Source of the DNA: Rhodospirillales bacterium
Lineage (GTDB): Bacteria > Pseudomonadota > Alphaproteobacteria > Reyranellales > Reyranellaceae
Assembly (NCBI GenBank): GCA_009377525.1
Contig: WHTW01000004.1
Coordinates: 1 to 64,000, forward strand
DNA: 64,000 nucleotides
Direction of reading: 5' to 3'
The position numbers and the translations under genes were made by a program. Below are positions 6,561-40,110 of this stretch, piece after piece; within the stretch, counting starts at the first letter, position 1, and each line of letters starts with the position of its first letter. The notes beneath the pieces were generated by a model that worked only from the letters and a program-made list of their open reading frames with translations, was not told where the DNA came from and made no database searches.

Positions 6561-6691
6561 TCTTCCGGACCGCCGGCTTCCGGCCGGCTCATACTCTTCG
6601 GAGCGCGGACCTCCAGGTCCGCATCATCCTCATGAGCGGACCTGGAGGTCGGCGCTCCGTTAGGCCGGCTGGAAGCCGGCGGTCCGGAAGA
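6561..6691. repeat. Nested REP-like palindrome (one element inside another)
   Basis: The outer arms 6561..6590 and 6663..6691 are inverted copies (TCTTCCGGACCGCCGGC...) with about one mismatch. Each arm also contains its own small hairpin. Between them sits a complete second element (6595..6659) of a different version, GGAGCGCGGACCTCCAGG. The whole structure exactly fills the space between the sppA stop and the stop of the convergent hydrolase gene. It could act as a bidirectional terminator or mRNA 3' end stabiliser. Confidence 0.85.
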
Positions 6692-18673: not shown

Positions 18674-18820
18674 TCGTTGTCGCGAATTATTTCGTGCCGT
18701 AGAGGGCCGCATCTGGCGGGTCGCCTGGGCGACGACGCCATTGCTTGTGTCGTCGAGCTCGAGTGCCAGCAATGCTTTCAACGACAGGCACAAACCCGTC
18801 AAAACCTCTGTGACGAGCTA
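18629..18820 (+). pseudogene. Possible relic of a small zinc-ribbon-like protein gene
   Basis: The frame through 18629..18820 encodes a peptide with CRRG, LAGRLGDDAIACV and a CxxC (ECQQC) followed by an Arg-rich tail. This resembles small proteobacterial zinc-ribbon proteins with paired CxxC motifs. The first pair is broken (CRRG instead of CRRC). There is no start codon with a ribosome-binding site, and the frame runs on as antisense to the next gene. Read as a decayed fragment. Confidence 0.3.
18674..18757. repeat. 84-bp dispersed repeat, copy 2
   Basis: Matches bases 1..84 without gaps at 82 percent identity. A GACGAC/GTCGTC stem (18731..18736 with 18749..18754) appears in the other copy as GGCGCC/GTCGCC. 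That is one compensatory A-T to G-C change and one mismatch, so it could be a structured RNA or a decayed coding repeat. Confidence 0.55.
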
Positions 18821-32239: not shown

Positions 32240-32779
32240 GTGAACGAGTACGGCCGCGCGCTCCGGCGATGGCGCCGCCTGCGCGGCGTCAAGCAGAGCC
32301 ATGCGGCCGAGCTTTTAGGCGTCACCCAGGCCACGCTGTCGCGCTGGGAGCGCGGCCATCGTCGGCTACCCGAGGAAGCGCAGCGCAAGCTCTCGCATCT
32401 GCTGCGCGCACCGCTCGATTCGGCGGGCGATGCCGCGCTGCGCCGACTCGTCGAGAACTCGACCCTGTCCGTCCACCTCATTTGCGACCTCTCGCATCGT
32501 CTTCTCGCCGCCTCGCCGTCGCGCGTGGTCAACTGGACGGCCGACCTTGCCGAGATGCGCGGCCGCTCGCTGTGGCGCTTCGCCACCGACGAGATCCGCG
32601 CTGCCGAGAGCCGGCTGGGCAAGCTCGGCTGGTACGATGACGGCGTGGCGCGGGTGAGCTTTCAGAACGGCGCCAACGACAGCGCGATCGTGCCCATCGA
32701 GCCCGGTGTTTTGGTATGGGAGCGCCTGCAACTCAGTGACGGCACCCTGGCCCGGCTGGTCACGTCGCTCGAGTCATAG
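32240..32779 (+). CDS. XRE-type helix-turn-helix regulator with PAS-like C-terminus
   Basis: A 179-residue regulator. N-terminal Cro/CI HTH (ALRRWRRLRGVKQSHAAELLGVTQATLSRWERGHR), then a ~110-residue domain (LSVHLICDLSHRLLAASPSRV..., LVWERLQLSDGTL) that looks like a PAS-type sensor. It starts with GTG overlapping the end of the GMC oxidoreductase region. It probably regulates that neighbouring oxidoreductase, an inference from position. Confidence 0.78.
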   Translation: MNEYGRALRRWRRLRGVKQSHAAELLGVTQATLSRWERGHRRLPEEAQRKLSHLLRAPLDSAGDAALRRLVENSTLSVHLICDLSHRLLAASPSRVVNWTADLAEMRGRSLWRFATDEIRAAESRLGKLGWYDDGVARVSFQNGANDSAIVPIEPGVLVWERLQLSDGTLARLVTSLES

Positions 32780-32787
32780 GTTTGCTA

Positions 32788-32945
32788 GGGGCGCGCCACT
32801 CCAGTGGCGCGTCTTCTCATGTTCTTCTGGACCGCGCGCATCTTGCGCGCTCATTAAGTCATGAGCGAGCCGGAGGCTCGCGGTCCGGAAGAGCATGACG
32901 CGCCACTTACGACGGAGTTTACTCCGTCTCTAGTGGCGCGCTCCC
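32788..32945. repeat. Nested palindromes: version A REP inside a second inverted repeat
   Basis: The outer element has arms 32788..32811 (GCGCGCCACT) and 32898..32945 (the right arm has an internal ACGGAGT/ACTCCGT hairpin). Between them sits a complete version A REP (32822..32892). It fills the gap between the XRE gene and the MFS gene. Confidence 0.8.
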
Positions 32946-33001
32946 GGCGATGAATATTTTATTCGTAGGCGATCGCCGTCCCCGTCCCTAACGTCGCCGC
33001 C

Positions 33002-34141
33002 ATGACCACCTCCTGGTCGCGCATCGCCCTGCTCTACGCCATCGGCGTGCTGGCGGCGGGCCAGCTCGGCATCGTGCCGCCGCTGGTGCCCGAGCTGCAG
33101 CGCGACCTCGGCCTGTCGCTGGCCGGCGCCGGCACGGCGGTGTCGGTCATCACCCTGGTCGGGGCCGTGCTGGGCCTGCCGGCCGGTGGCTGGTCGCAGC
33201 GCATCGGGCACGCGCGGGCGCTCGCCATCGGCCTTGCCATCATGGCCGTCGCCGCGGCCTTGTGCGCCGCCGCCAATAACGCCGCCACGCTGCTCGCCGG
33301 CCGCGCACTCGCCGGTATCGGCTACCTGCTGGTCGTCGTCGCCGGCCCCTCGCTGATGGCCGCGACCGCCGAGCCGCGCCATCACGCAATCACGCTGTCG
33401 CTGTGGGGCACCTTCGTGCCGACCGGCATCGCGCTGGCCGGCCTCGCCGCCGCGGGCTTCGCCGACTCAGGCTGGCGCACGATCTTCGCGGTCGATCTCG
33501 TGTTGCTGGCCACGGCGGTGATCGTCACGGTCGTGGCGGTGCCGCGCGACGACGGCGTGGCGCGCGGCGAGGAGAAGCCGCCGGCCGGCGCACTCATCTC
33601 GTCCCTGCCGCTTGCCAGCGCCTTCTTCTGCTTTGCCCTGCTCTTCCTGGCGCTCGCCGGATTGCTGCCGGCCTGGCTGGTCGAACGCCGTGGCCTGGCC
33701 GCCGCCGATGCCGGCCGCATCGCTGCCATCGCCATCGCCTTCGGCATCCCGGGCAGCCTTTTGGCAGGCTGGCTGATGCGCGCCGGTGTCTCGCCCGGCC
33801 GGCTCGCGGCGATCGGACTGCTGGGCTCGATGGCGCTGGCCGCGCTTTGCTTCACGACGCTGCCGCTGCCCATGGCCGTCGTGGGCTTCGCGCTGTCCTT
33901 CGCGATCGGCGGGTTGGTGCCGGCGGCGACCTTCGCTTCAGTGCCGCTGGTCGCCGCGAGCCCGCGCGCCATCGGCCCGATCAACGGCCTGGTGGCGCAG
34001 GCCGGCAGCCTGGGCTCGCTGGTCGGGCCGCCGCTGCTCGCCGTATGGGTCGATTGGACCGATTGGCCGTTCGCGCCGCTGCTGCTGCTGACGATCGCGG
34101 TGCTCGGCGCTGCTGCCGCCCTCGCCGTCAAGCGCGGTTAG
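33002..34141 (+). CDS. MFS transporter
   Basis: A 379-residue 12-helix major facilitator protein with the loop 2-3 signature region GLPAGGWSQRIGHARAL and the GRALAGIGYLLVVVAGPS segment. It belongs to the CynX/NimT-like or sugar-efflux-like groups by size; direction and substrate are unknown. No RBS-poor alternative start is better than the ATG at 33002. Convergent with the DUF2272 gene downstream, with a REP element between them. Confidence 0.85.
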   Translation: MTTSWSRIALLYAIGVLAAGQLGIVPPLVPELQRDLGLSLAGAGTAVSVITLVGAVLGLPAGGWSQRIGHARALAIGLAIMAVAAALCAAANNAATLLAGRALAGIGYLLVVVAGPSLMAATAEPRHHAITLSLWGTFVPTGIALAGLAAAGFADSGWRTIFAVDLVLLATAVIVTVVAVPRDDGVARGEEKPPAGALISSLPLASAFFCFALLFLALAGLLPAWLVERRGLAAADAGRIAAIAIAFGIPGSLLAGWLMRAGVSPGRLAAIGLLGSMALAALCFTTLPLPMAVVGFALSFAIGGLVPAATFASVPLVAASPRAIGPINGLVAQAGSLGSLVGPPLLAVWVDWTDWPFAPLLLLTIAVLGAAAALAVKRG

Positions 34142-34167
34142 TATCCGTTTCGATTTGTCAGATCATG

Positions 34168-35953: not shown

Positions 35954-37675
35954 ATGGCGAACTATCCCTGGGAAAAGAGCTATCCGCCCGGCGTGAAGTG
36001 GGAGCTCGAGGTTCCAAAGAAAGCCCTGCACCAGATCTTCGAGGAGAGCTGCGCGCAGTACGGCGATAGGCCCTTCACCGACTTCCTCGACAAGGTGATG
36101 ACCTTCCGCGACTACAAGGAAGCTTCCGACAAGGCTGCCGCCGGCTTCCAGACGCTCGGCGTCAAGCCCGGCGTCAATGTCGGCCTGTACCTGCCCAACA
36201 CGCCGCACTACCTGATCGCCTTCTTCGGCGTGCTGAAGGCGGGAGGCCGTGTGGTCAACTACAGCCCGCTCGACGCCGCGCGTGAGCTGGAATTCAAGAT
36301 CGGCGATTCGGAGACCGACATCCTGGTCACGCTAGACGTCGCCGCGCTCTACCCGAAGATGGCGGCGATGAAGGGCAAGACCCGGCTCAAGAAGCTGATC
36401 GTGGGCTCGATCGCCGACTACCTGCCGTGGCCCAAGAACTGGCTCTATCCCATCGCCAAGAAGAAGGAGATCTCCGCCTGGCCGCGCGACGACTGGCACA
36501 TGTCGTTCAAGGACCTTCTGGCCAACGACGGCAAGTACATCGCCCACCCGCTCGGCGAGGACCTGTGGGACGAGGTGGCGTTGCTGCAATACACCGGCGG
36601 CACGACCGGCCTGCCCAAGGCCGCCATGCTGACGCACGGCTGCATCGTGGCGGCAATGAGCCAGGGCCAGTCGTGGACCACGCCCTACACCACGCCCGGC
36701 ACCGAGAAGGTCGTGTGCGTGTTGCCGCTGTTCCACATCTACGCGCTGTCGGGAATCATGCTGGGCGCGGTGCGCAACGGCAACCAGCTCATCCTCTATC
36801 CGCGGCCGGACATCGACATGATCGTCAATGACCTCGCCAAGAAGAAGCCGACCTTCCTGCCCGGCGTGCCGACGCTCTACACCGCCATCAACAAGCATCC
36901 CAAGGCGCAGGGCCTCGACCTGAAGTCACTGAAGATCTGCATGTCGGGCGGCGCGCCCCTGCCGGTCGAGGTGCAGCAGGCCTTCGAGAAGCTGACGGGC
37001 GCCACGCTGATCGAGGGCTACGGACTCACCGAGACCTCGCCCACCGGCGCGATCTGCCCGGTCGACAAGAGCGTGCGCCGTGTCGGCTCGTGCGGCGTGC
37101 CGATGCCCGGCACGGTGATCGAGATCCGCGACATGGAGAAGGGCGACACGGTACTGCCGCCGGGCAAGGAGAATGTCGGCGAGGTCTGCATCATCGGCCC
37201 GCAGGTCATGAAGGGCTACTGGAAGAAGCCAGAGGAGACCGACAAGGTCCTGTTCCGCCATCCCAACAGCAACTGGCAGGGCCTGCGCACCGGCGACATG
37301 GGCTACATGGATGCCGACGGCTGGCTCTACCTGGTCGACCGCTCCAAGGACCTGATCATCTCGTCGGGCTACAACGTCTATCCGCGCATGATCGAGGAGG
37401 CGGTCTACGAGCATCCGGCGGTCGACGAATGCATCGTCATCGGCATCCTGCATCCGCATCGCCAGGAAGCACCCAAGGTGTTCGTCAAGCTGAAGCCCGG
37501 CGCCTCGCTCACCTTCGAGGAGCTACTGAAGCATCTCGACGGCAAGATCGGCAAGCACGAGATGCCGATCGCGCTGGAAATCCGGCCGGAGCTGCCCAAG
37601 ACGCCCGTCGGCAAGCTCTCGAAGAAGGAGCTGAAGGAAGAGGAGCACGCCAAGGCCCAGGCCAAGGCGGCGTGA
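35954..37675 (+). CDS. fadD: Long-chain fatty-acid-CoA ligase
   Basis: A 573-residue acyl-CoA synthetase of the ANL family. AMP-binding P-loop YTGGTTGLPKAAMLTH near 213, GYGLTETSP near 355, and GDMGYMDADGWLYLVDRSKDLI with the catalytic lysine in PVGKLSKKEL at the C-terminus. Activates fatty or related acids for beta-oxidation. GGAGG just upstream of the ATG. Chain-length specificity cannot be read, and the fadD symbol is tentative. Confidence 0.9.
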   Translation: MANYPWEKSYPPGVKWELEVPKKALHQIFEESCAQYGDRPFTDFLDKVMTFRDYKEASDKAAAGFQTLGVKPGVNVGLYLPNTPHYLIAFFGVLKAGGRVVNYSPLDAARELEFKIGDSETDILVTLDVAALYPKMAAMKGKTRLKKLIVGSIADYLPWPKNWLYPIAKKKEISAWPRDDWHMSFKDLLANDGKYIAHPLGEDLWDEVALLQYTGGTTGLPKAAMLTHGCIVAAMSQGQSWTTPYTTPGTEKVVCVLPLFHIYALSGIMLGAVRNGNQLILYPRPDIDMIVNDLAKKKPTFLPGVPTLYTAINKHPKAQGLDLKSLKICMSGGAPLPVEVQQAFEKLTGATLIEGYGLTETSPTGAICPVDKSVRRVGSCGVPMPGTVIEIRDMEKGDTVLPPGKENVGEVCIIGPQVMKGYWKKPEETDKVLFRHPNSNWQGLRTGDMGYMDADGWLYLVDRSKDLIISSGYNVYPRMIEEAVYEHPAVDECIVIGILHPHRQEAPKVFVKLKPGASLTFEELLKHLDGKIGKHEMPIALEIRPELPKTPVGKLSKKELKEEEHAKAQAKAA

Positions 37676-39960: not shown

Positions 39961-39971
39961 TGGTCTTTGCT

Positions 39972-40041
39972 GGGAGCGCGCCACCCTGCCTTCGCCGAAG
40001 CGAAGCCGCTTCGGCTTCGCGCAGGCAGATCCGTGGCGCTC
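39972..40041. repeat. REP-like palindrome, version C
   Basis: Outer pair GGGAGCGCGCCAC with GTGGCGCTC, and an inner hairpin of GCCGAAGCG/CGCTTCGGC near 39993. The outer arm matches the left arm of the nested element at 32788. Directly followed by a version B element. Confidence 0.75.
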
Positions 40042-40044
40042 GTG

Positions 40045-40110
40045 TTCTTCGGAGCGCGGACCTCCAGGTCCGCATCATGCTCATGAGCGGACCTGGAGGT
40101 CCGCGCTCCA
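40045..40110. repeat. REP-like palindrome, version B, abutting a start codon
   Basis: TTCTTCGGAGCGCGGACCTCC... with its inverse ending GGTCCGCGCTCC. The GGAGG at 40095..40099 is within the right arm, 12 bases before the ATG at 40112. It could serve as a weak ribosome-binding site for the following gene. Confidence 0.85.

Follow-up and report, generated by a model that had tools for sequence, protein, structure and literature searches.

At positions 32788-32945 of the window (the whole stretch of 64,000 nucleotides analyzed here), a version-A REP lies between the arms of a second repeat. The locus raises the question of whether the two form one element or are two elements that meet repeatedly, and, if they are two, of how one comes to lie within the other. 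To our knowledge, how RAYT transposases choose the place where a REPIN inserts is an open question. Two REPIN families with separate transposase clades that use each other's centres help to show where such elements insert, and in Reyranella, with its many sequenced species, filled and empty orthologous loci can reveal the target sites. The genome, designated G000 below, comprises 208 contigs and 7.35 Mb, and the window is its contig C153.

As read in the sequence, 32781-32949 is a C-type REPIN, i.e., a pair of inverted REPs with the hairpin GCGCGCCACTccAGTGGCGCG, that carries a complete version-A REPIN within its spacer. Its features are the following:

32781..32811, plus strand: left outer REP, C-type; its head TTTGCTAGGGGC overlaps the hairpin GCGCGCCACT-CC-AGTGGCGCG
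32781-32790: left outer head
32791-32811, plus strand: left C hairpin, GCGCGCCACT-CC-AGTGGCGCG
32812..32822, plus strand: outer spacer, long-side joint, TCTTCTCATG and one base, with TCAT immediately external to the inner REPIN
32823..32892, no strand: inner version-A REPIN, made of TCTTCTGGACCGC, a hairpin, the centre CTCATTAAGTCATGAG, a hairpin and GCGGTCCGGAAGA
32893..32898, plus strand: outer spacer, short-side joint, one base and CATGA
32899..32941, minus strand: right outer hairpin, C-type, inverted, CGCGCCACT ... AGTGGCGCGC
32908..32931, no strand: third-level palindrome TACGACGGAGTTTACTCCGTCTCT, 24 nt, within the loop of the right C hairpin
32942..32949, minus strand: right outer head, TCCCGGCG, the reverse of CGCCGGGA

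The original prediction described outer arms around a full version-A REP. The enclosure is real; since each arm is a hairpin in itself, however, the structure is a REPIN within a REPIN, and not a palindrome within one single palindrome. In the right arm, where an additional hairpin had been noticed, a 24-nt palindrome fills the loop of the C hairpin. By eye, a frame ends upstream of the composite with a TAG at 32777-32779, and an ATG follows downstream at 33003. Folded as single-stranded DNA, the composite reaches -67.2 kcal/mol against a mean of -33.6 for its shuffles (z -11.4), and 0 of 200 shuffles were that low. The C arms alone are not above chance in the window (20 found and 23 expected for a 10-mer with 1 mismatch); short arms being no commoner than chance, the evidence lies in the whole structure and in its copies elsewhere. 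Across G000, the exact C hairpin pattern has 39 matches and its reversed control 0. This genome-wide pattern and the fold energy rule out a chance origin, and the nested palindrome predicted at 32788-32945 is real.

The loop of the C hairpin measures 2 nt in 230 of 254 cases. Fifteen loops are 21-30 nt long, and 13 of them hold a small palindrome; the other 2 are pattern artefacts. Varied small palindromes (CCGAATCGACCTTCGGTCGATTCGG, GGTCGCG...CGCGACC) were also seen in the loops of version-A REPs (L012, L016, L020, L029 and L041). No counts were taken from a loop-length census of A and G hairpins, in which whole REPINs were mixed with true loops.

The composite has many relatives in its genome. 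A 201-nt query gave at least 90 matches at E<=1 across G000 (40 of 390 first-look candidates were scored), C hairpins with up to 2 mismatches number 70, and the version-A half site TCTTCYGGACCGC occurs 473 times in exact form, with 4 occurrences of its reversed control. With up to 2 mismatches allowed, 59 of 61 genomes of the genus contain the C hairpin; with 1 mismatch, it was found in 4 of 289 genomes of the class, all four from the window's own family. Public records with the identical 24-mer are mostly labelled Reyranella, Reyranellaceae or a broader taxon such as Rhodospirillales, which suggests Reyranella as the genus of G000. The Reyranella-type repeat also appears in records titled Asaia bogorensis (metagenome-assembled genomes) and Enhydrobacter aerosaccus (together L098, L104 and L133), where it may reflect how the records were named.

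Both the inner and the outer repeat have the following properties of REPINs: they are inverted REP pairs forming a long hairpin, they occur in high copy number, mostly between genes, and they have cognate RAYT genes carrying the same REPs, with A or G flanks in G000 and with C flanks only in other species. Of 113 C pairs with flanking sequence, 104 have the stop codon of an open frame (100 codons or more; a frame as such rather than an annotated gene) no more than 40 nt away on one side or both, and 52 have one on both; random positions gave 379 of 4000 per side.

If the outer repeat never occurred without an inner REP, as the original prediction pointed out, the two would be one element. We found the outer repeat alone in 57 of 127 distinct C pairs, with a spacer of at most 36 nt and no REPIN. 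In the remaining pairs one and the same C centre held guests of different families: version A in 43, a G-type REPIN in 13, a CCCTGAGG repeat in 5 and other fillings in 9, several of these last being degenerate A or G. The spacers of the 85 C pairs among 115 multi-species loci recovered by the C hairpin measured 10-31 nt (53 pairs), 43-49 nt (3), 74-110 nt (24) and 159-183 nt (5). Pattern searches gave 167 short-spacer C pairs (4-34 nt) in 32 of 65 Reyranella genomes (reversed control 4) and 99 long-spacer pairs (64-94 nt) in 14 of 65 (reversed control 6), numbers that are lower bounds in that the patterns demand exact arms, and that include some tandem heads among the short-spacer matches (e.g., G000:C123) and, among the long-spacer ones, some without a REPIN (G017:C440) or with runs of N (G033:C185).

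Version A, for its part, occurs without the outer repeat: in a 1.49-Mb sample of G000, 49 A+A- clusters had no C unit within 75 nt. The sample consists of 81 stretches of the 7.35 Mb, namely contigs C101-C120 taken by number, the window and long contigs; many of the long contigs were earlier search matches, so the sample depends partly on the element. By reading, it contains 14 complete C pairs with an inner element and 2 empty ones. Across the 20 genomes with at least 3 C pairs, the share of filled pairs rises with the copy number of version A (Spearman 0.79, p 3e-5, relatedness among genomes being ignored). Where version-A sites numbered 80 or more (7 genomes), 90 C pairs were filled and 51 empty; in the 13 remaining genomes, with fewer sites, 8 were filled and 100 empty. 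Such tracking is what two independent families predict, and the outer C and the inner version A are two independent elements.

The transposases divide in the same way. G000 has four Y1 transposase matches, each between two inverted REPs, which are G-type in two cases and A-type in two; none of the four is flanked by C-type REPs. In other Reyranella species, the same kind of RAYT gene lies between C-type units like the left outer REP of the composite. The C elements of G000 may be orphans or may use another RAYT. Both G000 proteins tested pass the NCBIfam model NF047646 (84.2 and 86.3 bits, cut-off 80). The HUH and Y...NPV motifs are present in all 23 reading frames kept, in part by selection, as the frames were picked by regular expression for these motifs. 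A tree was built from these 23 of 33 loci, the other 10 having given no frame that passed the motif filter; all 9 C-flanked proteins form one clade (support 99/97), with the 14 A- or G-flanked proteins on the other side. The separate clades indicate that the outer and inner repeats belong to distinct transposase lineages. In both families the RAYT gene sits in the same central position. At RAYT loci including L061-L063, the stop codon TGA lies close before the right REP or is part of it (TGAGCGC...), so that the gene fills the REPIN centre tightly. Both REPIN families are members of one group of RAYT-linked elements of Reyranella (Reyranellaceae).

Sequence comparison revealed that the presence of REPINs at orthologous sites varies between species. 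At the site of the composite, a C{A}C nest is present in G020 too, but oriented the other way; G014 contains one half of a C element, G012 an A-type REPIN alone, and G033 an A-type REPIN with an adjoining remnant; G004, G005 and G006 have other palindromes, and G019, G024, G026, G030 and G032 have none. The REPIN at 34162 is found in G000 only, being absent from G014, G033, G012, G020, G004 and G032. At 37675, G000, G020 and G004 have an uninterrupted version-A centre, and in G033 this centre contains a G-type REPIN; G033 and G000 have different outer arms there, and an independent arrival of the whole nest is possible. The outer arm that had also been noticed at 39972, next to another REP, is genuine, but decayed:

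39968..40041, plus strand: left half, decayed, of a second C{G}C nest; the hairpin loop contains a third palindrome
40051..40109, no strand: G-type REPIN GGAGCGCGGACC...GGTCCGCGCTCC, the inner element of the nest at 39972; the right C half is missing

In G014 the same site (L319) has an intact C{G}C nest. Compared with it, the nest in G000 (39968-40109) seems to have lost its right C half between two copies of CATGA.

Inner REPINs were found only in the centre of the C pair and never in the stem or loop of a C hairpin, as expected from the prediction that insertion is always central. Two candidates that seemed to split the C hairpin were false, one being a mutated left arm (L026) and the other a variant hairpin (L247). 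The reverse arrangement, C inside A, is complete in L121 and occurs with a decayed right arm in G033 (L324), at the site orthologous to 39972 of the window. Reverse nests were first sought with a search whose 2 matches both proved false, being chance heads in the flanking DNA; a second search gave 4 rows, L121 twice among them. In L113, a left G half adjoins a C{A}C nest, and the right side lies beyond the stretch analyzed; this may be a further reverse nest, with three levels if the G half has a partner. Nests of elements within their own kind, in the 1.49-Mb sample, comprise A in A', A in G and G in A, the last within the window:

6561..6691, no strand: nest, G-type REPIN central in a version-A-type REPIN

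A longer palindromic repeat with CTCACCCTGAGGAGC fills the centre of the C pair in L109, L147, L151, L154 and L183.

The joints between host and guest bear on the history of the nests. Thirty-one of the 43 version-A nests share a single pair of one long and one short joint, GTCTTCTCATG / GTCATG, and the long-side joint TCTTCTCATG at 32812..32822 is the one common to these 31. Within them, GGACCGC is preceded by T on the long side in 15 nests and on the short side in 5. The shared joint and the asymmetry of T point to copying of the C{A}C composite as a unit, and the composite probably also spreads in this way. Nearly all joints of the 13 G-type nests in C differ, as separate insertions would produce. 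The original proposal, of two families repeatedly targeting each other, is supported, with qualifications: both directions are seen, and repetition is clear for the G-type; for version A, "repeatedly" is weakened by the joint that 31 of 43 nests share, many of these nests probably being copies of one composite. Nor is the relation exclusive to two families, given A in A', G in A and A in G.

In solo version-A REPINs, TCAT lies 1-3 nt beyond 35 of 64 ends, and beyond at least one end in 26 of 32 elements (background 0.9%), solo elements having been told from nested ones by similarity, with some false flags. At G-type ends, TCAT or TCTT often stands immediately 5' of GGAG, and TCATG stands at the foot of most REP hairpins, where the centre of the REPIN lies. 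With TCAT as the presumed joining place, REPIN centres would act as landing sites. We consider it likely that a non-autonomous REPIN enters the exact centre of another family's REPIN through RAYT insertion beside TCAT. The RAYT would cut and join single-stranded DNA beside TCAT (or TCTT). As TCAT is present both just outside the REP heads and at the 3' foot of the REP hairpins, the centre would offer it in both orientations, and a REPIN landing there would leave both outer hairpins intact. The C{A}C composite would keep intact C ends and would probably be copied as one larger REPIN, and the smaller palindromes would have entered hairpin loops by a separate route. Several points count against this model: the TCAT at the ends could be part of the element and not of the target; with one joint shared by 31 of 43 nests, the version-A part needs few insertion events; simple insertion leaves the varied middles of the empty C spacers unexplained; none of the four RAYTs of G000 has C-type flanks; the whole nest at 37675 in G033 may have arrived independently; and the correlation with copy number takes no account of relatedness.

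A more ambitious reading, which we regard as slightly less likely than not, is that the REPIN centre is a docking site for several palindrome families and for RAYT genes, that stacking is recursive, up to three levels, because the host hairpins survive insertion, that the stack moves as a larger REPIN, and that TCAT is the target of the transposase. If this is true, new composite mobile elements would be built from hairpin modules. Small non-coding hairpins can assemble into larger mobile composites.

Alternatively, the composite may have formed once, all copies descending from it by movement of the unit, with no repeated targeting of centres. The joint pair shared by 31 of the 43 version-A nests, together with the T asymmetry, fits such a history, which is nevertheless unlikely in view of the nearly always different joints of the 13 G-type nests, the 5 CCCTGAGG repeats, of another kind, in the same centre with different surroundings, and the existence of reverse nests and of the A-in-A', A-in-G and G-in-A combinations. 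A single origin is contradicted as the sole explanation; it is still a likely route for the multiplication of the version-A composite.

Quite improbable, in our view, is an origin without transposase, whether by template switching or by capture of DNA, at forks stalled between hairpins, with the centre as a fragile loop that collects nearby DNA. Such a process would accommodate the empty C spacers, with their conserved rims (GTCTT or GTCAT) and highly varied middles, the presence of unrelated repeats in the same centre, and the composite's opposite orientations at one site in G000 and in G020; yet the guests are mostly complete, ending at their own REP ends with TCAT adjoining, and RAYT genes lie in the very same slot, bounded on either side by REP ends.

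A single repeat with a variable middle, of which both palindromes, outer and inner, would be parts, finds some favour in the excess of long- over short-spacer pairs (15 to 3 in G000, 39 to 6 in G020, 13 to 6 in G033), but is refuted by copy counts and by the separate RAYT clades, since other genomes have many outer and few inner repeats (20 empty and 0 filled pairs in G073, 13 and 1 in G017, 6 and 0 in G069), version A has hundreds of copies in G000, mostly outside C, and the C-flanked RAYTs form their own clade, so that we give it almost no credence.

Insertion of REPINs into the centres of other REPINs beside TCAT, the reading we prefer, has partial precedents. The REPINs of Pseudomonas fluorescens SBW25 are likewise inverted REP pairs accompanied by RAYT genes, with different REP heads (Bertels and Rainey 2011, PMC3116915), and the passages of that report concerned with nesting briefly note REPIN-in-REPIN insertion in five regions of the genome. 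In comparison, the Reyranella nests are common, occur in several species, are central and reciprocal, involve separate RAYT clades and were compared at orthologous sites. Di Nocera and others (2013, PMC3733652) described, for A. variabilis, T. roseum and H. neapolitanus, palindromes of other kinds into which REP dimers or elements are inserted; according to the pertinent sections of their article, in two of the three species the target palindromes were not found without REPs. Unlike the palindromes that host those GTAG/CGTC REPs, the Reyranella outer repeat often stands alone and is itself a RAYT-linked REPIN; neither GTAG nor CGTC was found at the foot of the Reyranella hairpins, whose heads read GGACCGC, GGAGCGC or GGGGCGCGC.

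A RAYT gene between inverted REPs is likewise described by Nunvar and others (2010, PMC2817692) and in a study of TnpAREP (PMC8266576). In the relevant part of the former, RAYTs meeting its criteria came only from gammaproteobacteria, whereas those of Reyranella are alphaproteobacterial; in an HUH enzyme survey (PMC6006769), the portion on alphaproteobacteria lists none or few such genes per genome. In the cleavage experiments of the TnpAREP study, the tested enzymes of other species cut single-stranded REP DNA at CT or CA; in Reyranella, TCAT is the proposed site. REP palindromes likewise serve as landing sites for insertion sequences (Tobes and Pareja 2006, PMC1525189), although the guests in the cases presented there are full insertion sequences and those in Reyranella are other REPINs. 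In the open-licence literature of PubMed Central we found no report of nested REPINs in Reyranella. Three points go beyond known REPIN nesting: the nests are central on a large scale, the families that host each other have separate transposase clades, and a target motif can be proposed.

Two minor observations concern the assembly and the window. Contigs C10, C15, C32, C34, C36, C39 and C50 of G000 start about 30-55 nt ahead of a version-A REP, which looks as if the assembly broke at the repeats. The window also contains a direct repeat of 82 nt with 83% identity, at 1-82 and 18674-18755.
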